Positions 1 to 17,299 of a stretch of 64,000 nucleotides of DNA are shown here, piece by piece. This stretch comes from Deltaproteobacteria bacterium. GTDB taxonomy: Bacteria > Myxococcota > Myxococcia > Myxococcales > 40CM-4-68-19. The stretch covers positions 139,895 to 203,894 of the forward strand of contig VBKI01000064.1 in assembly GCA_005879535.1 (NCBI GenBank). Reading direction: 5' to 3'. The notes beneath the pieces are model-generated. The model was not told the DNA's origin and made no database searches. It saw only the letters and a program-made list of their open reading frames with translations. The position numbers and the translations under genes are program-made. Position 1 is the first letter of the stretch. Every line of letters starts with the position of its first letter.

Positions 1-2195
1 GTCCGCCCGCTGGCGTCGCGGGGGTCGAACTCGATGCTGGAGAGTAGATATGTGCCGCCTGCGGACCCCTGGGGGCGCTGCTGGATACCGACAAGCCAGT
101 GCGACCCCCCGTCGTTGGTCATGTACGCATACCGGTTCGACACTGCGGCCCACACCTGCGTGCTACCCGGATGAGCGGCGAGGTTGCGCAGTCCGATCGT
201 CGTGCCGTCCACCGTGATGAATCCGGTCGTGTTCCGATTCGAGTCCTGCCAGTGCAGGATACCGGACACATTCGTCCACGACTGCGTCCCGCTCCTCCAC
301 TGATAGACTCCGGCGGGCTGGCCGCTGAACGTGAGAAATTGTTCCGGCGTCGCGCCGGCGCGGACGATGCGGACGAAGAACGGAAGCGGCGCGAGGCCGG
401 AGGTGAACCGGGCAAACGTCTGTCCACCGTCGGTGCTCCTGTACAGACCGCCGGCGACGGACGCGAAAAAGTTGTCCGGCACCTCGACCTGCAGCGTGGC
501 ATCGACATGCGTCGTCGCGCTGACCGCCAAGCCGATCCCATCTCCGCCGAGCACCTGGTTGAACACGGTCGTTTCGCCGAGCCGGACCCTGGTGCCGTTG
601 TCCTGCAGGCCTCCCGCGACGAAGCCCTTCGTCGCCGGGGAGTCTGGCCACGATTCGGGAGCACACGCTACGCTGTAGGCGAGGTGCGTGATCAGACCCT
701 CGTTGTGCGCACTGGTGAAGATGACGTCCTTCGCAGGCGAGGAGAGCGCGTTCGGCGACACCGAGATGCCGCCATCGGAACCCGCGTAGAAGAGGCCGTC
801 CGCCCCGACGGCGAACGCGTGCAGGTCGGCGTGGACGTACGCGCGATCGATGTTCGCGTTCGCGGAGTTGTTCGGCAGCCAGTCCGAGAGGACGGACCAC
901 GTCCGACCCGCGTCGAGGGAGCGGATGATCGCCAGTTGGCCGCCGATGAAGACACCGTCGGGATTCGCGGCGTCGACGAGAAGCGCCTGGTTGTACCAGG
1001 CCTGCACGCCGAGAACATCGAGGGACATCGCGTCCGGGTTCGGGTTCTCCGGCCGCCGCGACGCGTTGACGTGCAAGGCCTGGAAGCTCAGCCCTCCATC
1101 GTCGCTGCGAAAGAGATCGAGCTGCGCACCGCCGTCGACGGTGGCTGCGAGCAGGTAAATCCGTGCGCTGGCGGAATCCGGTACCGTGCTCTCCGCCGTC
1201 GCCAACGTGGCGCGCCCGGCAAGCTGCGCGCTCGCGTCCCCGCCGGGAAGCGCAGCGCTGGCAAGGGTCCATGTGGCGCCGTCGTCCGTCGAGCGGAAGA
1301 GGACGAGCGAGCCGCCGGCGTCGGCCGTCGGCGGTGCGGTGATGTCCGCCACCGCCTGTCCAGTGGCCAGCCATGTGTCGCTTCCGGCAAAGGCCAGGCT
1401 CCACATGTAGTACGCGCGGGAGACGCCGGAAACGATGAGCGGTACGTGGAACCAGCCGGCGCCGCCGTCGGTGCTCCGGAACAGGCCCGCGTCGGTTGTC
1501 GCCAGGACCACGGCGCTATTTCGCGGATCCACCTTGATGTCCGTCACCGCGCCCGCGGTCAGCGTCCGGGTGGTGGCCCCGATCGTGTATGTGGCCGCCA
1601 CAGCCGCGGGGGTCGACCACGTGCCCCCGCCGTCGGTGCTGCGGGTAATGCCTGGCTGCCGCACGTCGAATGGATCGCCGAATCCAAGGAAAAGGATGTC
1701 TGGATTCGACGGGTCCATCGCGAGCGTACCGACCGCGGTGGTGCCGATGGCGTCAGTGAGTGGTTCCCAGAGGACCACCGGTGCGGTTGCAGTGGATGTC
1801 TTCCAGACCCCCCCACCCGCAGTGGCGAAATAAAGGACGTCGGGGTCCATCGGGTGCGCCAGGATACGGCGGGCACGCCCGGAGTCGATCTCTGTATATC
1901 TGTCGCCGTTCACCGCGTAGTTGGCGCGCGTCGGACCGAGGTTCACGAACGCGCTGCTCGACGCTGCAGAGAGCCGCTTCGCGCCCGAAAGGGGCCGGCC
2001 CTGGCCGATCGCGTACCGGTCCCTCTCTCTCTGCGCCGCGTCGAGAATCCGCGCCCGGCCGGCGACGTCGTCGCCAGACCAGTCACGCGTCGCCCGCAGC
2101 CGCGCCGCCGGATCGTCCAACTCGACTGCCGCCGCCCGTGCAACGGCTGCAGCGAGCAGGACCGCCGCGAACAAGACGGGTGTGCGGGGGCGCAA
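1..2195 (-). CDS. Secreted BNR/Asp-box repeat protein, C-terminus cut by window edge
   Basis: About 731 codons are visible and the frame is still open at position 1, so the C-terminus is missing. A TTG start at 2195 follows GGGAGGG at good spacing and opens a Sec signal peptide (charged RPRTP, then a hydrophobic stretch ending ARAAA). At least seven Asp-box motifs follow (STDGGGTW, STDGGAGW, STDDGATW, SDDGGLSF, SLDAGRTW, STDGGQTF, TNDGGSHW), the signature of sialidase/sortilin-type beta-propellers. Family members are extracellular glycoside hydrolases, adhesins or photosystem-assembly-like propellers. No sialidase catalytic RIP motif was seen, so the activity is unknown. The ATG at 2199 is out of frame. 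It is the last gene of a minus-strand run. Confidence 0.8.
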   Translation of the reverse strand, partial: MRPRTPVLFAAVLLAAAVARAAAVELDDPAARLRATRDWSGDDVAGRARILDAAQRERDRYAIGQGRPLSGAKRLSAASSSAFVNLGPTRANYAVNGDRYTEIDSGRARRILAHPMDPDVLYFATAGGGVWKTSTATAPVVLWEPLTDAIGTTAVGTLAMDPSNPDILFLGFGDPFDVRQPGITRSTDGGGTWSTPAAVAATYTIGATTRTLTAGAVTDIKVDPRNSAVVLATTDAGLFRSTDGGAGWFHVPLIVSGVSRAYYMWSLAFAGSDTWLATGQAVADITAPPTADAGGSLVLFRSTDDGATWTLASAALPGGDASAQLAGRATLATAESTVPDSASARIYLLAATVDGGAQLDLFRSDDGGLSFQALHVNASRRPENPNPDAMSLDVLGVQAWYNQALLVDAANPDGVFIGGQLAIIRSLDAGRTWSVLSDWLPNNSANANIDRAYVHADLHAFAVGADGLFYAGSDGGISVSPNALSSPAKDVIFTSAHNEGLITHLAYSVACAPESWPDSPATKGFVAGGLQDNGTRVRLGETTVFNQVLGGDGIGLAVSATTHVDATLQVEVPDNFFASVAGGLYRSTDGGQTFARFTSGLAPLPFFVRIVRAGATPEQFLTFSGQPAGVYQWRSGTQSWTNVSGILHWQDSNRNTTGFITVDGTTIGLRNLAAHPGSTQVWAAVSNRYAYMTNDGGSHWLVGIQQRPQGSAGGTYLLSSIEFDPRDASGR

Positions 2196-4791: not shown

Positions 4792-7700
4792 TCAATGAAA
4801 ATCGTGCGAGCGGATGTCGTACTCGATTGCCTCGTGCAGGCCCCAGAAGCGGTCACCCTTGACGCTGGTCACGCCGTCGTACGTCTCCAGGCGTCCCTCC
4901 ACGACGAGCAGTGAGCTGGCGAGGATGGGGCGGCGGTTCTTCTCGAATGTCGGGGGGTCGATGACGATGTTGGAAATGCCGGTCTCGTCCTCGAGCGAGA
5001 GGAAGACGAACCCCTTCGCCGTGCCGGGACGCTGGCGAACGATGCAGAGCCCCGCGGCCCGCACCCGGCGACTCCGGCGCAGCGTGGGGAGCTCGGCGGC
5101 GGAGTGGACGCCGAGGACGCGCAGGCGCTCGCGCTCCAGCGCGACCGGGTGCGGACCGACGGTCATGCCCGTGCCGCGCAGATCGGCGGCGATGCGATCG
5201 CGCAGGTCCATCTCGGGGAGCGGGCTGCGGCCGCGGTCGGGCGGCGGTTCGACTCGCCCCGGCAGTGGTTGCTCGCCGCGGACTTCCTCTCCGAAGGTCC
5301 GCAGCGCCTTCAACGCATGCTCCCGCGGATGCGCATTGATGTGCGCGAGGAGCGCGCCCTCCCGCTGCCTCTCGGGCGCGAGTGGCTTCTGGGGCGCGAG
5401 ACCTGTCCCACCGGCTACCATGTTGGCAGAGGGGTCCGACATCAGATCCTCGCGTGGCTCGATTCGGGCGAAGAGGCCGGGACCTCGCCGTGAGGCGGCC
5501 TCCGCTTGCCAGAGTGCGGCCCGCCGGGTGGGCAGCGCCCCTCCGGGGTGCATGGGCACCGAGGCGAGCGCGCCGATCTCCGCCAGCGCGGTCAGCTCGT
5601 CGCGGCGCAGCCTCGTCCGCGCCGCCAGATCGGCGATGCTCGCAAACGGCGCGCGGGCGCGTTCCTCGACGATCTTCTTTCCCACCGTCTCCCGCAGCCC
5701 GCGCGCGTACCGCAGCCCGAGTCGCAGTCGCAGCTCCTCCTCCGGTCCGGTCCGCTCCAGCGTGCACAGCCAATCGCTGCGGGCCGCGTCGATGGGCTTC
5801 ACCCGCACCCCGCGCCGCTGCGCGTCCTTCACCAGCGTGGCAGGGCTGTAGAAGCCCATCGGCCAGCAGTTGAGCATCGCCGCGTAGAACGCCTGCGGAT
5901 GGTGCACCTTGAGGTACGCGCTGGCGTAGACGATCAGCGCGAACGACGCCGCGTGGCTCTCGGGAAATCCGTAGAGCGCGAACGAGGTGATGCTCTGCAC
6001 GATCTCGTCCTGCGCCTTGGGCGCGATCCCGTTCGCCGTCATTCCCGCGCGCAGCCGCTCCTCGATGTGCTTCATCCGCTCTACGCTGCGCTTGCTGCCC
6101 ATGGCCCGCCGCAGCTCGTCGGCCTCGCCGCCGGTGAAGTTCGCCGCGGTCATGGCGATGCGCATGAGCTGCTCCTGGAAGAGCGGCACCCCGAGCGTCC
6201 GCTTCAGCACCGGCCAGAGCGACGGATGGGGCACCGAGGGTTTCTCCCGCCCGGCGCGCCGCTCCAGGTACGGGTTGACCATCTGCCCGACGATCGGTCC
6301 GGGCCGGATGATCGCCACCTCCACCACGATGTCGTAGAAATGGTCGGGGCGCATGCGCGGCAGCGTGGCCATCTGCGCGCGCGACTCCACCTGGAAGACG
6401 CCGATGGTGTCCGCCGTCTGCAGCAGCCGATAGACACCGGGGTCGTCGGGCGGAAGCTGCGCCAGATCGAGCTCGACGCCTTCGTGTCCGCGGACCAGCG
6501 GAATGGCCTGCTCGAGCACCGCCATCATCCCCAGCCCGAGCAGGTCGATCTTGATGATGCCCAGATCGGCGCAGTCGTCCTTGTCCCACTGCACCACCGC
6601 CCGGCCGGGCATCGAGGCGGGCTCGAGCGGAACGATCTCGTCGAGCCGCCCGCGGGCGATGACCATCCCGCCCGAGTGCTGGCCGAGATGCCGCGGCAGG
6701 CCGGCGATCTGCTGGCAGAGCTGGAGGTACAAGGCCACCCGCCTGTCGCCGGTGGCGAGCCCCGCCTCGCGCGCCCGGTGCTGGAGCGAATCGTAGTCGG
6801 TGATGAACTCGAATTGCGGGAGCAGCTTCGAGATCCGGTCCAACTCCTCCTGCGGGAGTCCGAGGACCTTGCCGATCTCCCGCGAGGCGGAGCGGGCGCG
6901 GTAGGTGATCACGTTGGCGGTCATCGCCGCCCCCACCGCTCCGTAGCGCTGGTAGACGTGCTGGATGACCTTCTCGCGCTGGTCGCCGCTGGGAAGATCG
7001 AGATCGATGTCCGGCCACGCCTTGTGCCCGGTTGCGTCGGTCCGTTCCTCGGAGAGGAAGCGTTCGAAGAGCAGGTTCATCCCCACCGGATCGACCGCGG
7101 TGATCCCCAGCGCGTAGCAGACGGCGCTGTTGGCCGCCGATCCGCGCCCTTGCACGAGCACGTTCTCCTGCCCGCAGAAGAGCACGAGGTCGTGCACGAT
7201 GAGGAAATACCCTGCGAGCCCGAGCCTCGCGATCAGCGCCAGCTCCCGCTCGAGCTGCGCCACGGCCTTCGGCCATCGCGAGCTGCCCGGGCCTCCGTAC
7301 CGCTTCGGCGCGACGTCCATGGTGCGGTGCCACAGCTCGCCGTCGAGCGAGGCGGCATGCAGGAACTGCGGCTCGGGCAGCTCGTACCCGAGATCGTCGA
7401 GGGTGTAGGCGCAGCGCTCCGCGATCTCGCGCGTCCGGCGGACTGCCTCCGGCAGATCCCGGAACAGCCTGGCCACCTCGGGCGGGGAGCGGACGTGCCG
7501 CTCGGCGTTGCGCGAGAGGCGCCGGCCCGCTTCGTCCAGCGTCGTCTTGAGGCGGATGCAGGTGAGCGCGTCGAACAAGGGCTTCCCTTGCGGCGCCGCG
7601 TGGCGCACCCCGGATCCGGCGACGATCCGCAGCCCTCGCGCCCGCGCGGCGTCGATCCGGCTGCGGTTCTCGCGCTCGCTGCGTGGATCGAGGTCGCGCC

Positions 7701-8433: not shown

Positions 8434-8636
8434 GGCGAGCCTCCAGCGAGCTCGTTCCGGGACGAGTTGAAGTGTTCACTTCCCAACTCGCCCCGGGGCG
8501 AGTTCAAGTGTTCACCAGTCGACTCGCCCCGGGGCGAGTCCGAGGCATCCCTGAGAATTTCCGGGCAGTTGGCGGTGCTTCGTGCGCCTGCTCGCGCCGC
8601 GGTCGTCAGCCGATCAGTCGTCAGCCGATCAGTCAT
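8430..8636 (-). CDS. Small palindrome-bearing reading frame linking imuB and dnaE2
   Basis: A 68-codon frame (starts MTDRLTTDRLTTAARAG) that fits exactly between its neighbours: its ATG overlaps the imuB stop by 8 bases and its TGA overlaps the dnaE2 GTG. The N-terminus has a five-residue duplication (TDRLT twice) and the C-terminal half repeats S-P-R-G-E, read from palindromic DNA. No known domain is recognised. It may be a translated spacer that keeps ribosomes moving from imuB to dnaE2, a small protein, or chance coding across a regulatory repeat. The exact fit at both ends favours translation, but there is no independent evidence of a functional product. Confidence 0.4.
   Translation of the reverse strand: MTDRLTTDRLTTAARAGARSTANCPEILRDASDSPRGESTGEHLNSPRGELGSEHFNSSRNELAGGSP
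8451..8540. repeat. Three palindromes at 36-base spacing between imuB and dnaE2
   Basis: Perfect 20-base palindromes lie at 8485-8504 (AACTCGCCCCGGGGCGAGTT) and 8521-8540 (GACTCGCCCCGGGGCGAGTC), with a decayed copy at 8451-8466 (CTCGTTCCGGGACGAG). Centres are 36.0 bases apart in both intervals. The first two copies are each followed by a shared spacer AAGTGTTCAC. Because 36 is a multiple of three, each copy is read in the same frame of the small ORF. In RNA each would form a strong stem, so the array could act on message stability, translation of dnaE2, or as dimeric protein sites in DNA. Confidence 0.85.
8605..8634. repeat. 15-base perfect tandem duplication across the imuB stop codon
   Basis: GTCAGCCGATCAGTC occurs twice without a gap, at 8605-8619 and 8620-8634. 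The second copy contains the imuB stop (TCA on the plus strand at 8629-8631), so the duplication lies across the end of imuB and the start of the small frame, where it encodes TDRLT twice. Confidence 0.9.
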
Positions 8637-10158
8637 AGACCGCCTCGATCCGCCAGGTGCCGGTGGCCAGCTCGCGTGCCGCCCGGATCAGGAGCCCTCC
8701 GGCCAACTCCAGGTCGTACGCGTCGAGCGCGAGCGGCGCGTCGGTCCACCATTCCGCGACCGTCCGCCACGGGCCGGCGCTGGCGACCACCCGCCCGCCC
8801 AGGGCGCCCTCGCCGATGACCAGCAGCGGCGTGCCGGCATCGTCGCAGCGCACCTCCGCCGTGCGCGGCGGGCGCAGCGCTCGCGCGGCGAGCGACAGCT
8901 CGATCTCTCCCGGAACCGCGATCCGCGGCGGCGGAGGTGGCGCGAACTTGCCGCATTCCGCGGCGAAGGGCGCCCACCGATCTGGTGCATGCGGCCGGCC
9001 GATCCGGTCGGGCCCGACCATTGCGGACAGCCGCGCCACCGCGGTTGCGAGCTGGGTCGGACTGGCGGCGCGCGGTCCGAAGAGCGGCATCTGCTCGAGC
9101 ACTTCGCGCGTGGGAACCGCCGAAAGCCGCACGGCGCGCACGCCGGCCATGGGCGGACGCGACTCGACCGACAGCCGCAGCAGCTGCAAAAGGGCGGCGG
9201 CCTCGCGTGTAGGCGCCGCAAGATCCAGCGCGCGCTCATCCCAGGAGCCGTCTGCAAGCCGCAGCTGCAGATCCATCTCCCGCGCCATCAGCCCGCGCGC
9301 AGAGAACCTTTGCGCCAGCCGATCGAGCAGCGCTTTCCAGACGAACAGCAACGGCTCCACCGAAGAGGCGTCCCACTCCAGCTCCTCTCCTTCCTCGAAC
9401 CGTTCCGGCTCCTCGCGCGACACCAGCGCAGATGCGTCTTCCCCTCGCGCCAACCGCGCCAGCAGCCCTGCTTCGGGCCCGAGCCGTGCCGCCAGCGGAC
9501 CCGGCGGAAGAGCACCGACTTCACCGAGCGTGTGCAGGCCGAAGCGGCGCAGCGATTCGAACAGCTCGTCGGGCAGCTCCAGCGCATGCAGCGGCAGCGC
9601 GGCGAGAAACTCGCGTTGCTCCTCGGCCGCGACCACGAGAAATGCTCCTCCGCCGGCGCCCCACCGCGTCTCCTCCAGCGTCAGGTCGGCGGAAGCCGCC
9701 CGCGCCGCGAGCCGGGCGACCGCCTTGCTCGAACCGAAGCCGACCGCAGCGCGAAGCCCGACGTGCTCCGCGGCGGCCACCAGCGCGCGAGCCACCGCGC
9801 GGTCGTCCCCGATCAACGATTCCAGCCCCGCTACGTCGAGGTAGACGAGTCCGGGCGCCGCCTCCTCGACGCGAGGCGACACCGCGGCTGCCGCCTCGCG
9901 TGCCGCCTGGGCCGCGGCCCTCTCCCGCTCGGGCGACGACTCGCGCGTGAGCAGCCGCGGACACGTCGCGCGCGCCTCCGCCAGCGTCTGCCCTGCTCCG
10001 ACGCCGTCGGCCGCTGGCGTCGCCCCGAGCACATGCGCGCGCCCGCCGAGATCGCGTCCCGCCTGGACCACGGCGAGCGGCTGGGAGCAGAGCTGCGGCT
10101 CCGCGCGCAGGGCGGCGACGAGCGGAAGGTCGGGAACCCAGAGGCAGGCGATCTTCAT
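8629..10158 (-). CDS. imuB: ImuB, catalytically inactive Y-family polymerase-like protein
   Basis: A 509-residue member of the Y-family fold that bridges DnaE2 and the sliding clamp in the SOS mutasome. The usual catalytic aspartate near the N-terminus is absent (MKIACLWVPDLP) and the SIDE motif is replaced by GLVYLDVAG, as expected for ImuB, so it should not polymerise. A likely beta-clamp motif, EQMPLFG, sits near residues 355-361, comparable to QLPLWG of mycobacterial ImuB. The ATG at 10158 is 9 bases after the imuA stop. The second half is poorly conserved in the family. Confidence 0.93.
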   Translation of the reverse strand: MKIACLWVPDLPLVAALRAEPQLCSQPLAVVQAGRDLGGRAHVLGATPAADGVGAGQTLAEARATCPRLLTRESSPERERAAAQAAREAAAAVSPRVEEAAPGLVYLDVAGLESLIGDDRAVARALVAAAEHVGLRAAVGFGSSKAVARLAARAASADLTLEETRWGAGGGAFLVVAAEEQREFLAALPLHALELPDELFESLRRFGLHTLGEVGALPPGPLAARLGPEAGLLARLARGEDASALVSREEPERFEEGEELEWDASSVEPLLFVWKALLDRLAQRFSARGLMAREMDLQLRLADGSWDERALDLAAPTREAAALLQLLRLSVESRPPMAGVRAVRLSAVPTREVLEQMPLFGPRAASPTQLATAVARLSAMVGPDRIGRPHAPDRWAPFAAECGKFAPPPPPRIAVPGEIELSLAARALRPPRTAEVRCDDAGTPLLVIGEGALGGRVVASAGPWRTVAEWWTDAPLALDAYDLELAGGLLIRAARELATGTWRIEAVYD

Positions 10159-10167
10159 CGGCCACCG

Positions 10168-10926
10168 TCATCCCGGCTCGAGCGGCAGATGGATGGGCAG
10201 CGGCGGTGAAGGCGGCATCCGCTTGTGCCGCGCCACCGCGCCCACCGCCTGCATGCCCCGCAAAAACCGCCCTGGATCGCCTGGACTGCCTTCCCACTGC
10301 GCGCGACCGCGCTCCAATTCGATGGTGGCGGTGGCAAACGTTCCGGCCTGCGGAGCCCGCGCCAGCACCAGGAGGACGCCGCCGTGCTTCTCCGCCCGCC
10401 GCGCCAGCCGCGCCCACGGCGATGCGCCCGGGGAGAAGGACTTCTTCTCGAATCGGACCACCTGGATGATGCCGCGCGGCTGCTTCGGCGGCGGGAGGAC
10501 GCTGACGTCGCCGAGGTCCAGCGCCACCAGCGCGAAGCGCGCCTCCAGCGCGACTTCGGCGGTGCGCAGCGCCTGCACCGGATCGCGCGGGCGCACCCAG
10601 AGGAGGCGGTCGAGATCGATGCCGTGCGGCGACGCATCGAAGGAATCGCCGGGATCGATCAGCGCGCAGTTCTCCCCGGCGCGCGTTGCCGAAGCGAGAG
10701 CGGCGCGCATCAGCGCCGTTCCCCCTGCGCCGGCGGGGCCGACGATCTCGTGAAGCTGCCCCCGCGCAAGTCCTCCTCCGAGCGCAGCATCGAGGGCACG
10801 AAACCCCGTGGGCAGCGGCCGCGGCACGCGAGGAGAGAGCGCCGGCGCCCTGCGCACCTGGCCGTCGCGAAGCAGCTCCTCGAGGGCGTGGAGGTCCCTG
10901 GGCAGGCGGCGCGCGGGCAGTGTCAC
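10168..10926 (-). CDS. imuA: ImuA, RecA-like mutasome protein
   Basis: A 252-residue RecA-fold protein, first gene of imuA-imuB-dnaE2. The core starts at LPTGFRALDAALGGGL, typical of RecA/ImuA. The P-loop is odd: GPAGAGGT has glycine where Walker A requires lysine, so ATP binding may be lost. The hydrophobic strand FALVALDLGDV is the Walker B region. ImuA homologues bind RecA and ImuB and are needed for damage-induced mutagenesis. The GTG start at 10926 has only a weak Shine-Dalgarno; a -10-like element ends 9 bases upstream, so the message may be nearly leaderless. Confidence 0.9.
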   Translation of the reverse strand: MTLPARRLPRDLHALEELLRDGQVRRAPALSPRVPRPLPTGFRALDAALGGGLARGQLHEIVGPAGAGGTALMRAALASATRAGENCALIDPGDSFDASPHGIDLDRLLWVRPRDPVQALRTAEVALEARFALVALDLGDVSVLPPPKQPRGIIQVVRFEKKSFSPGASPWARLARRAEKHGGVLLVLARAPQAGTFATATIELERGRAQWEGSPGDPGRFLRGMQAVGAVARHKRMPPSPPLPIHLPLEPG

Positions 10927-13592: not shown

Positions 13593-15404
13593 TCACTCAT
13601 CCTCGGTCTGCTCCAGCTTGGCGCGCAGCAGATCGCCGAGCGTCCCGAAGCCCTTTCCCGGCGGCATCTTCTTGTTCATCTGCCGCTGGTACTCGCGGTA
13701 GTCGGACGCGCCTTCCGCGCGCTCCGCGGCGGTGCGCGAGAGCCGGTAGCGCCCCCGATCGTCGAGGTCGACGACCTGCGCCTTGAACTGCGTTCCGGGC
13801 GGCACGGTCTTCTTGTTGTCGCTCCCGCGCGGCGTGCCCAGCTCGGCGTTGGGCACCAGCCCCTTGCCACCGTCCCAGTGGACGAAGACGCCGAAGGGTT
13901 CGCACTTGTCGACGGTGGCATCCACCACGTCGCCGACGCGGGCGCGCTTCTGCTTTTCCGGCTTCGCGCTCTCCTTCCCCTGCGCTTCGTCCTCGCTGAT
14001 CCGGCGGAGGGCCACCCGCTTCTGCGCGTCGTCGACCGACTCGATCTGGACTTGGATGGTCTCCCCTTCCTTGACGACGTCCCGCGGGTGTTGCACGTGC
14101 CGGTCGGAGAGCGCGGAGACGTGCACCAGCCCGTCCACGCCGGGGAACAGCTCGACGAACGCGCCGAAAGGCTGCAGGCGCGCCACCTTGCCCGAGAGCC
14201 TTGCTCCTTCCTTCAACTGCGGGCGGGCTGCGTCCCACGGATCCTGCTCGAGAGCGCGAAGGGAGAGAGCGATCTTGTCGTGTCCTTTGTCGTCCTTCTC
14301 GATCCGCAGCACCTGCACCTTGACGCGCTGGCCGGGCTTCACCACGTCCTGCGCGTGGGCCACGCGGGCATGGGACAGCTCGGAGACGTGGACCAGCCCT
14401 TCCAGGCCGCCCAGATCCACGAAGGCGCCGAAGTCGCGCACCGAGGTGACGGTCCCTTCGATCTGCGCGCCCACCTCGAGCCGCTTGCGCAGCTCCGCCG
14501 CCTGCGCGGCTCGCTCCTCTTCCAGGAGGGCCCGGCGCGAGAGGATGGCGTTTCCGCCGCGGATCTCGGTGACACGAAACCTGAGGCGCTGCCCGACGAA
14601 CTGCGACTGGTCCTCGACGAACCTCAGGTCCACCTGCGAGGCGGGCACGAATCCGCGCAGCCCGCCGAGATCCACTTCCAGGCCGCCCTTGTTCTGCCCG
14701 GTCACCAGCCCTTCGATGGGGATCTTCGAGTCCAGCGCCTGCTGCACGATCTCGCGGCCCGCTCCCTTCGGCACGGTGCGCGTGACCACGACGTTGCCCT
14801 CGGTGAGCGAGAGCACATATCCCTCGATGGTCTCACCGGCGTGCACCAGCAGGTCGCCCTTGTCGTTGCGCAGCTCGCGGAGATCGATGATCCCTTCGCC
14901 CTTTCCGCCCAGATCGAGAAAGGCCACTTCAGCGCCCAGGTGGGCCACGCGCGCGGACATCTTCTGCCCGACGCGCAGCTTCCCCGGCTTCTGCTGCTCG
15001 GTCTCCGCGAACAGCGCCGCGAAGTCGGCGTTTTCCTCCGGCGAGGGTTGCGCGTAGACCGACCCGGGATCGTCGGTCGGCTTGGACGCGGGCCTTTCCG
15101 CGGCCTCCGCCGCGGCGGCAGGCGGCTCGGAAGGCGCCGGCGCTCCCAGAGTCGGCTTGCGCACGACAATGGGCATCTTGCGCTCTTCCTTCTGACGTGG
15201 AGGCCGGCTCTTCCGCTCCGCCGCCGGTGGCCGGGAAGGGTCGGATGTTGGCCGTGCCGACTCGAGGATCTCCTCGAACGTCGGCTGCGTGGCCTTCTTC
15301 GGCGGCTTCGGCGCCGCTTTCGGCTCCTCGGTCGAAACGCCCTGGAGGACCTCCTCGAACGAGGGCTGCCGCTTCCGCTGCTGTTCTTCCGGCTTGTCGC
15401 TCAT
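13593..15404 (-). CDS. Multi-S1-domain RNA-binding protein
   Basis: 603 residues. The first 130 or so are charged and proline-rich with two FEEVL/FEEIL motifs and look disordered. Then come four clear S1 OB folds plus a shorter fifth: KMSARVAHLGAEVAFLDLGG, then FRVTEIRGGNAILSRR, TVTSVRDFGAFVDLGGLEGL, KVARLQPFGAFVELFPGVDG and ATVDKCEPFGVFVHWDGG. It resembles ribosomal protein S1 but has a divergent architecture, so it may aid translation or RNA decay rather than be RpsA itself. The ATG at 15404 follows GGAAGAAGG. The stop abuts that of the convergent GNAT gene. Confidence 0.88.
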   Translation of the reverse strand: MSDKPEEQQRKRQPSFEEVLQGVSTEEPKAAPKPPKKATQPTFEEILESARPTSDPSRPPAAERKSRPPRQKEERKMPIVVRKPTLGAPAPSEPPAAAAEAAERPASKPTDDPGSVYAQPSPEENADFAALFAETEQQKPGKLRVGQKMSARVAHLGAEVAFLDLGGKGEGIIDLRELRNDKGDLLVHAGETIEGYVLSLTEGNVVVTRTVPKGAGREIVQQALDSKIPIEGLVTGQNKGGLEVDLGGLRGFVPASQVDLRFVEDQSQFVGQRLRFRVTEIRGGNAILSRRALLEEERAAQAAELRKRLEVGAQIEGTVTSVRDFGAFVDLGGLEGLVHVSELSHARVAHAQDVVKPGQRVKVQVLRIEKDDKGHDKIALSLRALEQDPWDAARPQLKEGARLSGKVARLQPFGAFVELFPGVDGLVHVSALSDRHVQHPRDVVKEGETIQVQIESVDDAQKRVALRRISEDEAQGKESAKPEKQKRARVGDVVDATVDKCEPFGVFVHWDGGKGLVPNAELGTPRGSDNKKTVPPGTQFKAQVVDLDDRGRYRLSRTAAERAEGASDYREYQRQMNKKMPPGKGFGTLGDLLRAKLEQTEDE

Positions 15405-15474: not shown

Positions 15475-16341
15475 TCAGCCTCGGGCCCGGCGACGGCCCG
15501 CGTCGTGCGCTTCGGCGTCCAGCTCGCGCATCGATGCGAGCAATTTCGCCTCCGCCGGCAGGCGCGCTTTGCGCATTCCATCTCCACCGACGACGACCCT
15601 TCCGCCCGTCTGCCGTGTCGCGGCCACCGCCATCGCCACCTGCTCGCCGACCTCTCCACTCACCGTGCTGCTCAGAGCGACGATCGCGCCGCGCGCGCGG
15701 AGGATCAGATCGGCGAGGTCGCGAGCCGGGGTCTGGGCCAGCGGTGCGAGCACCTCGAATCCCTGGGCCCGCAGAAGGCAGGCTGCCATGCGCGCAGCGA
15801 TGTCATGCAGCTCGCCGGCCACGGCGGCGACGATGGCGGTCCCGCGGTCGGATCGGACCGGCTCGCCGGGAGGCTCGGCCAGAGGCTGCGATCTCGCCAC
15901 CGCGTCGATCACGGCCTGCGAGGCGACATGCTCCTCGGCGATGGAGAGCTGCGCCTCCGCCCACTTCTTCCCCACTTTGTGGAGGGCCGGCGCCACCACC
16001 TCGTCGAAGAGCTGCGGCAGCGAATATCCACGCAGCCGGATTCCGGCGAGCTGGGCGACGAGGGCCGCGGCGTCGCCGCGAAGAGCCGCCTGCTCGAACT
16101 GTCGGGTCGCTTCCTCACCGGGCTCTTCCGCTCCCTGCGGGAGCGCCGAGGGCAGTGGACCCGCCGCCTGATACTGGCGCTTCTGCACGAACGCGGTCAC
16201 GTCGCGGAGGCGGAACTTGCGATGACCGCCCGGCGTCCGAAAACAATCGATCTCCCCGGCGTCCGCCCAGCGTTTGACGGTCGCCTCACCCACGCCGAGC
16301 AGCGTGGCCACCTGCCGTGTCGACAGAACATCCGTGTTCAT
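15475..16341 (-). CDS. MerR-type regulator with cobalamin-binding domain, CarH-like
   Basis: A 288-residue regulator. Residues 5-50 form a MerR helix-turn-helix (STRQVATLLGVGEATVKRWA, then TPGGHRKFR). Residues 75-145 are the helical cap with W127-x9-E137-H138, the signature by which CarH-type photoreceptors shield adenosylcobalamin. The Rossmann B12 domain has E177-x-H179, where the histidine ligates cobalt; the usual following glycine is alanine. LSSTV and GGRVVVGGDG complete the B12 fold. In Myxococcus and Thermus, CarH represses carotenoid genes in the dark. No carotenoid gene is in the window, so the targets are elsewhere. It is divergent from gluQ with 31 bases between. Confidence 0.88.
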   Translation of the reverse strand: MNTDVLSTRQVATLLGVGEATVKRWADAGEIDCFRTPGGHRKFRLRDVTAFVQKRQYQAAGPLPSALPQGAEEPGEEATRQFEQAALRGDAAALVAQLAGIRLRGYSLPQLFDEVVAPALHKVGKKWAEAQLSIAEEHVASQAVIDAVARSQPLAEPPGEPVRSDRGTAIVAAVAGELHDIAARMAACLLRAQGFEVLAPLAQTPARDLADLILRARGAIVALSSTVSGEVGEQVAMAVAATRQTGGRVVVGGDGMRKARLPAEAKLLASMRELDAEAHDAGRRRARG

Positions 16342-16372
16342 GCTTTTCCTGAGCGATGTGAGCGGTTAGACG

Positions 16373-17299
16373 ATGAACGAGCGCGGACGATTCAACGAGC
16401 GCGGACGATTCGCTCCGAGCCCCACGGGCGAGCTGCATCTGGGCAACGCGCGTACCGCGTTGCTCTCCTGGTTGTGGGCACGACAGGCAGACGGCGAGTA
16501 CGCGATGCGCGTGGAGGACATCGACCTCCCGCGCGTACGCGCGGGGATGGCCGAGCGCCAGCTCGACGAGCTGGCGTGGCTCGGGCTCGATTGGGACGGC
16601 CCACCGATCTTCCAGTCGCGACGCACGGATCTCTATGAGGACGCCCTGCGCAAACTGCGCGGCCACGTGTATGAATGTTTCTGTTCGCGGACCGAGATCG
16701 CCGCTGCCAGCGCGCCGCAAGGCGACGAAGGGCCGCGCTATCCCGGCACCTGCGCCTCGCTCACCCGCGCGCAACGCGACGAGCGCTGCCGGACGCGCGC
16801 CCCTTCGTTGCGCCTGCGCGTTCCGCCCGGCCCGCTGTCGTTCCACGACGAGATCCTCGGGGACCAGACGTTCGATACCCAGCAGCTGGTCGGAGACTTC
16901 GTGCTGCGCCGAGGCGACGGAGTCTTTGCCTATCAGCTTGCCGTCGCCGTGGACGACGGCGCCATGGCCATCACGCAGGTCCTGCGCGGAGCCGATCTCG
17001 TGTCGTCCACCGCCCGCCAGATCCTTCTCCACCGCCTGCTCGGCCATCGCGAGCCTCGCTGGGCCCACGCGCCACTGGTGGTCACGCCGGGCGGAGAGCG
17101 GCTTTCCAAGCGCGACCGGCCGCTCTCGCTCTCGGCTCTGCGTGCCCGCGGGGCCGACCCGCGTCGGATCGTCGCAGATCTTGCGCATCTGTCCGGGATG
17201 ACCGCACCCGATCGCTGCGAGCCGCGGCAGCTTATCGGCTCTTTTTCGTTATCGAAAGTAGGCAAAGCCCCCGTCCCGATTGGCCCATTGCCGTACTGA
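16373..17299 (+). CDS. gluQ: Glutamyl-Q tRNA(Asp) synthetase
   Basis: 308 residues, homologous to the catalytic half of glutamyl-tRNA synthetase without the anticodon domain. It attaches glutamate to queuosine at the wobble base of tRNA-Asp. It has GRFAPSPTGELHLGNARTAL (HIGH region), a zinc site built from CFC and YPGTC, and a KMSKS-like GERLSKRDR. The N-terminus carries a six-residue duplication (NERGRF twice) from an 18-base tandem repeat, so a few residues may be dispensable. The ending after HLSGM diverges from the family. Confidence 0.92.
   Translation: MNERGRFNERGRFAPSPTGELHLGNARTALLSWLWARQADGEYAMRVEDIDLPRVRAGMAERQLDELAWLGLDWDGPPIFQSRRTDLYEDALRKLRGHVYECFCSRTEIAAASAPQGDEGPRYPGTCASLTRAQRDERCRTRAPSLRLRVPPGPLSFHDEILGDQTFDTQQLVGDFVLRRGDGVFAYQLAVAVDDGAMAITQVLRGADLVSSTARQILLHRLLGHREPRWAHAPLVVTPGGERLSKRDRPLSLSALRARGADPRRIVADLAHLSGMTAPDRCEPRQLIGSFSLSKVGKAPVPIGPLPY
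16376..16411. repeat. 18-base tandem duplication at the gluQ N-terminus
   Basis: AACGAGCGCGGACGATTC is repeated head to tail at 16376-16393 and 16394-16411 with no mismatch. It keeps frame and duplicates NERGRF just before the conserved APSPTG motif. The single copy would be enough for the normal synthetase N-terminus, so this looks like a recent slippage event. Confidence 0.95.

Follow-up and report, generated by a model that had tools for sequence, protein, structure and literature searches.

The nearest homologue of known structure to the regulator considered here is CtMerR of Chloracidobacterium thermophilum (PDB 8JBS/8JBT), and CtMerR-type photoreceptors have been characterized by spectroscopy and structure (PMC11796333). 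The same paper gives a light signature for cobalamin-binding domains (SignatureFinder), made of GxxW, EH, GxxH, and GxxxP; in the CtMerR structure, as it is described there, the glycine of the last motif makes no obvious contact with adenosylcobalamin (AdoCbl). CtMerR has an arginine at the position of H132 of Thermus thermophilus CarH (TtCarH), yet it binds AdoCbl and passes from tetramer to monomer in green light. The photocobilins (8J2W/X/Y) also have a light-responsive AdoCbl domain, and they carry bilin-binding and other output domains (PMC11796333). As for DNA targets, the Results of that paper give neither an operator nor target genes for CtMerR itself, and no report of either turned up among open-licence PMC papers, of which this one alone was found to name CtMerR; a regulon inferred here is thus that of a relative only.

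Two other systems are close enough for comparison. CarH, from T. thermophilus and myxobacteria, has a classic MerR HTH and an operator of 11-bp direct repeats, and carH usually lies near crt genes; the myxobacterial B12 motif reads D/ExHx2G/Px41SxT/Vx22-27GG, and CarA has lost the Trp of Wx9EH (PMC9304148). BldC of Streptomyces (PDB 6AMA/6AMK) is a 68-residue protein without a sensor domain, which binds 9-bp direct repeats head-to-tail with the consensus AATTNNNN(C) (PMC5859096).

The locus analysed here belongs to a stretch of 64,000 nucleotides, the whole of which is called the window. Its features are collected in Table 1. G000 stands for the window's own genome, and the other handles of this kind stand for genomes of its relatives.

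Table 1. Positions in the window (or residues of the regulator) of the features discussed
Feature	Position	Strand	Remarks
Multi-S1-domain protein gene	13593..15404	(-)	S1 domains; ~70 bp downstream of the regulator, same strand; possible operon partner; start codon picked by reading
CtMerR-type cobalamin-binding regulator gene, 288 aa	15475..16341	(-)	BldC-like HTH at residues ~5-55
Regulator, helical bundle	residues ~76-150		carries W127-x9-E137-H138
Regulator, B12-binding Rossmann domain	residues ~168-285		axial H179
Candidate operator, tandem 9-bp units TAACCGCTC ACATCGCTC	16351..16368	(-)	9 bp upstream of the regulator ATG, 4 bp upstream of the gluQ ATG
gluQ (glutamyl-Q tRNA(Asp) synthetase-like)	16373..17299	(+)	divergent neighbour, possible target; tRNA-synt_1c 184.9 bits

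The regulator and its ligand residues

A sequence-only reading of this DNA had proposed a CarH-like regulator, as in Thermus, with a MerR-type HTH, and both proposals hold in part. The protein is most probably a regulator of the cobalamin photoreceptor type, in which Pfam recognizes HTH_17 (45.3 bits) and MerR_1 (22.7 bits, cut-off 21.6), together with B12-binding_2 (42.7 bits) and B12-binding (33.1 bits, cut-off 32.1). In sequence and fold, however, it is nearer to CtMerR than to Thermus CarH: a phmmer search against the PDB places CtMerR first, over residues 6-255 (E 6.4e-30), with Thermus CarH at 4.6e-18 and 5.4e-18. The HTH searched alone finds CtMerR (2.7e-11) and BldC (1.3e-8 and 1.8e-8, alignable over residues 5-52), and nothing else in the PDB at 0.001; by this search it is BldC-like and not of the classic CarH type. 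Of the NCBIfam models, HTH_BldC gives 55.2 bits against a cut-off of 77, although 6amk aligns well when only the HTH is compared, and the CarH equivalog NF052513 gives 81.5 bits against a cut-off of 400. The latter cut-off is likewise out of reach for a CarH-like protein linked to crt genes in G009, with 137.3 bits.

An AlphaFold2 model of the regulator (12 sequences, mean pLDDT 80.9, pTM 0.71) matches the fold of CtMerR with Z 22.8 (rmsd 2.4, 213 aligned) and the photocobilins with 22.1-22.3, and a tied group follows at lower values: a monomethylamine corrinoid protein (17.8), MetH (17.6), AppA (17.6), and TtCarH (17.5). These matches place the protein with the CtMerR/photocobilin group, but to set it apart from light-insensitive corrinoid proteins the Wx9EH residues are needed in addition to the fold. 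The extra domains of the photocobilins are absent from the window protein, whereas its BldC-like HTH is absent from them. With CarH it has in common the domain order, Wx9EH, the lower axial His, and likely isoprenoid/carotenoid targets. With CtMerR the homology covers the whole length, HTH included, and the two share the W, the EH, the axial His, the alanine that follows it, and the lack of an H132 equivalent. For the window protein, CtMerR-type regulator is therefore a better name than CarH.

The residues on which the sequence-only reading was built, W127-x9-E137-H138 and E177-x-H179, are all found at the named positions of the translation, and W127, E137, H138, and H179 are invariant in the ten regulators of the family. 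Its claim of a complete photoreceptor signature has to be narrowed. GxxW and EH are present (G124-W127, E137-H138), as is GxxH with the axial His (G176-E-L-H179), each in 10/10 family members, but in GxxxP the glycine, which CtMerR retains, is replaced by Leu201, with Pro205 kept; all ten regulators read LAPLAQTP or LAPLAATP here. In addition, the equivalent of H132, in TtCarH the second Co ligand of the light state (bis-His), is Ala128 in the window and Ala, Glu, or Gln across the family.

That an alanine follows the histidine in place of glycine was correctly seen: position 182, after the axial-His motif, is A182 in the window, alanine in nine of the ten family members, and glycine in G007. 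When the protein is compared with the myxobacterial B12 motif, length and spacing fit and Wx9EH is present, and it is again this alanine that stands in place of Gly/Pro. Could it block the cobalamin pocket, which the sequence-only reading had named as a ground for refutation? In the alignment CtMerR reads GDLHEIA at its axial His, i.e., it has alanine too, and CtMerR is a tested, light-responsive photoreceptor (PMC11796333). Ala182 is thus no obstacle to the pocket, and a blocked pocket is ruled out as an objection. We infer that the window protein binds AdoCbl and responds to light.

The regulator is present in 10 of the 12 genomes of its family, the window's own counted, with 63-81% identity between the relatives' proteins and that of the window; it is missing from G003 (61% complete) and G009 (98% complete). 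In each of the ten loci gluQ diverges from the regulator, which is followed by the S1-domain protein (the contig of G008 holds the start of gluQ alone). Among the gluQ-type genes of G003, G009, and 20 genomes from elsewhere in the order, none of the 24 loci read has the regulator as neighbour. The invariance of W, EH, and H, together with this conserved gene order, argues that the signature is not a matter of chance.

Related regulators were also seen in family f6 of the order (L125 in G049, L021 in G051, and L128 in G027), and the two that were aligned, from G049 and G051, retain the W, the EH, and the axial His. In another family of the class, two adjacent CtMerR-type regulator genes lie on opposite strands, both with W..EH (L122, G145:C33, ~6005-7669). 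Two side observations concern the window: the 5' end of gluQ (16373-16408) contains an 18-bp tandem duplication (MNERGRF-NERGRF), absent from the relatives' upstream regions that were read, and two neighbouring ORFs at 8629-10926 (-) resemble, by eye, an ImuB/ImuA-type DNA-repair pair.

Tandem 9-bp repeats and the promoters that carry them

The start codons of the regulator and gluQ are 31 bp apart, and the candidate operator occupies most of this gap, so the earlier suggestion that the divergent gluQ might be a target gains ground; judged from the repeat, the regulator's own promoter and that of gluQ are both likely targets. The consensus is NAAWCGCTC twice, in direct tandem with a period of 9 bp, as for BldC; the AT-rich element of BldC is AATT, whereas here NAAW is followed by CGCTC. 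The repeats at the HMG-CoA reductase (HMGR) and crt promoters are likewise built of 9-bp units, and not of the 11-bp units of the CarH operator.

With at most one mismatch, ATCGCTCANATCGCTCA matches the own genome (5.16 Mb) a single time, in the regulator/gluQ gap. At the same threshold G007 has one match and G004 two, all at the regulator locus, G008 has three with one at that locus, and G001 and G010 have single matches elsewhere. The gap of G010 contains an exact 9-bp tandem, GAAACGCTC, that of G011 two imperfect units, and the loci of G005 and G006 weak versions with 5 mismatches; the gaps of G001 and G002 (16 and 20 bp) have no recognisable repeat (6 and 7 mismatches). Allowing three mismatches makes the scan too loose, with 75 matches in the own genome. 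A period scan upstream of the ten regulator genes picks out period 9 (Fisher p 1.75e-6; all other periods, 11 included, at least 0.58), a value on which we do not rely because the sequences are related and the peak falls inside the gluQ coding sequence in G001 and G002 (with a tie in G004).

When the 12 genomes were scanned with AAWCGCTCNAAWCGCTC at up to two mismatches, intergenic matches appeared ahead of HMGR in G001, G002, G004, and G008, and also in G007; the genes downstream were identified after the scan, and the sites of G001 and G002 are perfect. Inspection of 10 HMGR promoters adds G000 and G010 (3 mismatches) and G005 (4 mismatches); the repeat was not found in the HMGR promoters of G011 and G009, nor an HMGR gene in G003 and G006. 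All eight sites share one strand relative to HMGR and lie, by eye, ~50-80 bp before the start codon. Among carotenoid genes, G011 has a perfect double unit upstream of its crtI-like/crtB genes (L111:5725; gene at 5800), and the crt operon of G004, where the crtI family scores 654.6 bits, has three imperfect units that immediately precede its gene for lycopene cyclase (L127:10982).

The strength of these sites was assessed with a matrix built from seven regulator/gluQ sites alone, taking the best score within 200-bp promoters. The background consisted of 213 promoters from the family genomes and the window, with 10 that overlap regulator/gluQ regions or the crtI site set aside, and its highest score is 11.4. 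HMGR promoters exceed the entire background in eight of the nine regulator-bearing genomes, the own included (G000 18.3, G001 26.8, G002 25.5, G004 18.7, G005 13.1, G007 21.5, G008 23.1, G010 17.5), although the genomes are related and the scores are therefore not independent trials; the HMGR promoter of G011, at 6.2, has no site. The crt promoters are marked in both genomes in which they are readable (crtI of G011, 32.0; crtY of G004, 16.8), the crtB of G007 lying at a contig end where its promoter could not be read. G009, the sole control genome without the regulator, gives -0.4 for HMGR and at most 7.6 for five crt-region genes. In this genome, the one well-assembled member of the family that has no gluQ-linked regulator, a CarH-like gene sits beside crtB in a crt cluster (L103, G009:C41, 6354-15434).

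A genome-wide model search was also run; it lists its own training sites, whereas the HMGR matrix test uses only the seven regulator/gluQ sites. In G004 the first three places go to the gluQ/regulator, crt, and HMGR sites, and in both G007 and G008 the first two go to gluQ/regulator and HMGR. For the own genome the list begins with a match in a coding frame (E 0.054); gluQ/regulator (0.068) is next, then a site upstream of an RND gene (0.53), then HMGR (0.71), so that the imperfect HMGR site, with its 3 mismatches, comes fourth and behind one coding-frame site. A wider regulon was considered and rejected, most of the weaker matches elsewhere sitting inside called genes. A match without mismatches at C66:11265 of the own genome is in a coding frame, as are similar ones in G005 and G006. 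Two matches may be further sites: one at C78:22163 of the own genome, with an AcrB-like RND gene 145 bp downstream, and one that precedes a TonB-dependent receptor gene in G002 and G003. The pattern is fitted as well by an element dispersed in G002/G003 and by a repeat that G007 carries at contig ends. A recurring element around TTGGTCAAATGACCAAAWCGNTCAAATCGCTCA includes 9-bp units (L203 and L204 in G002, L205 and L207 in G003), and its copies L204 and L205 lie between convergent genes.

The regulon had earlier been called unknown; the 9-bp repeat now points to the HMGR promoter and, in relatives, to crt promoters as candidate members. For the own genome, the predicted targets are the HMGR and the regulator/gluQ promoters.

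A proposed light switch and its alternatives

Computation establishes to which family the protein belongs, that its ligand residues and the repeats are conserved, and where the repeats lie. How might they work together? We consider it probable that the protein is a CtMerR-type AdoCbl photoreceptor acting by dark repression through the 9-bp repeats, on a regulon of HMGR, the crt genes where present, and regulator/gluQ. In the dark, AdoCbl would lie between the helical bundle and the Rossmann domain, with W127 and E137/H138 facing the adenosyl group and H179 on the cobalt; the loaded protein would oligomerise, and its BldC-like wHTHs would bind NAAWCGCTC NAAWCGCTC head-to-tail and block the promoters. 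Green light would then break the Co-C bond, the oligomer would dissociate, and the genes would be switched on. By analogy with CarH and CtMerR, it should be the dark AdoCbl form that binds and represses, and light that releases it. We infer that it is this protein that binds the repeats, and that it represses rather than activates. In G011 and G004 only a short distance separates the repeats from the crt genes, as would be expected for repression; those of HMGR are farther upstream, where activation may be conceivable. The earlier description, an AdoCbl-dependent and possibly light-responsive repressor, can thus be kept as that of a regulator that would depend on AdoCbl and probably responds to light, the sign of its action being presumed to be negative.

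AdoCbl should be available in the own genome, where a cobalamin adenosyltransferase is encoded (PF01923, 210.6 bits) and two cobalamin riboswitches precede BtuB-like receptors, the receptors themselves scoring below the model cut-off. The adenosyltransferase and QueG genes lie ~3 kb apart (L106, G000:C67, 1154-1765 and 5034-6071). QueG, found in 11 of the 12 family genomes, is a cobalamin enzyme, and gluQ acts after it. With respect to carotenoids, the sequence-only reading had proposed a search of the genome for their genes and for CarH-type operators. For the former, a PF00494 search alone recognised no phytoene synthase in the own genome, its two matches being a squalene-synthase-like gene beside a squalene-hopene cyclase and a weak one; for the latter, the tandem repeats at the regulator and HMGR promoters are of 9 bp, not 11 bp.

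Other readings of the same data have to be weighed. The regulator might sense the amount of B12 and not light, AdoCbl binding alone switching its DNA binding, with photolysis incidental or absent. The missing H132 and GxxxP glycine would agree with this, as would the apparent import of B12 (the riboswitches ahead of the BtuB-like receptors) and the place of gluQ after an enzyme, QueG, that 11 of the 12 genomes possess. On the other hand, W and EH, which face the adenosyl group, do not vary in the family, and the nearest solved homologue, CtMerR, responds to light although it also lacks H132 (PMC11796333). Isoprenoid/carotenoid targets suit light better than B12 supply, and we regard a sensor of B12 amount as unlikely. 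Or is the main job to couple B12 status to the queuosine modification of tRNA, by control of gluQ, whose substrate depends on QueG? The gluQ adjacency in 10 of the 12 family genomes, the frequency of QueG (11/12), and a candidate operator 4 bp from the gluQ start in the window speak for it. Nevertheless, HMGR and crt promoters carry repeats too, G001 and G002 have perfect HMGR sites but none in the gluQ gap, and a gap shared with a divergent gene need not imply control of that gene; this coupling appears distinctly improbable as the main job. Regulation of gluQ only was rejected as a working model, the repeat being found at other promoters as well.

The repeats might instead be the sites of a different protein (a second BldC-like or MerR regulator), with the window protein beside one copy by chance. 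The G001 and G002 loci, which have no repeat beside the regulator, would allow this. It seems quite unlikely, though, considering that ATCGCTCANATCGCTCA at up to one mismatch is unique to the regulator locus in G000 and G007, that both G004 matches are there, that the HMGR and crt promoters of the regulator-less G009 are without the repeat, and that 9 bp is the known spacing of sites for an HTH of the BldC type (PMC5859096). Last, a CarA-like protein, with the fold retained but B12 no longer needed, would account for the departures from the classic B12 motif, i.e., Ala for Gly/Pro, and for the Leu in GxxxP. This we hold to be very improbable indeed: the Trp of Wx9EH that CarA lost (PMC9304148) is present in 10/10 family members, and CtMerR has the Ala too.

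A possible link between light, cobalamin, and the entry into isoprenoid synthesis

Searches of open-licence PMC papers listed no report of control of the mevalonate pathway by CarH or a cobalamin photoreceptor through an operator, and none in which a cobalamin regulator governs the synthesis of glutamyl-queuosine. A precedent in gene order exists for CarH-type control linked to HMGR, since HMGR lies inside the carotenoid cluster in five Cystobacterineae (PMC9304148), although none was found for control by a 9-bp operator of this kind or a CtMerR-type regulator.

If the protein is the CtMerR-type photoreceptor and dark repressor that we favour, what would it do for this organism? It is quite possible, if still somewhat doubtful, that a light sensor with a BldC-type head sets the mevalonate inflow via HMGR, here without recognised carotenoid synthesis, and that light in this way tunes the supply of hopanoids or quinones, and perhaps tRNA modification via gluQ. 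The comparison with CarH suggests that the BldC-type head brings with it 9-bp head-to-tail repeats, which replace the 11-bp repeats. DNA signals common to these related uncultured soil bacteria suggest that it acts chiefly on the enzyme at the entry to isoprenoid synthesis, and on the carotenoid genes as well where a species has them.

The locus and its relatives thus supply a concrete candidate operator and a candidate regulon for CtMerR-type photoreceptors, and they offer a case in which B12 and light probably control HMG-CoA reductase at a site separate from the carotenoid genes. Gain or loss of crt genes around a retained HMGR site would show the evolutionary shift of a light regulon.
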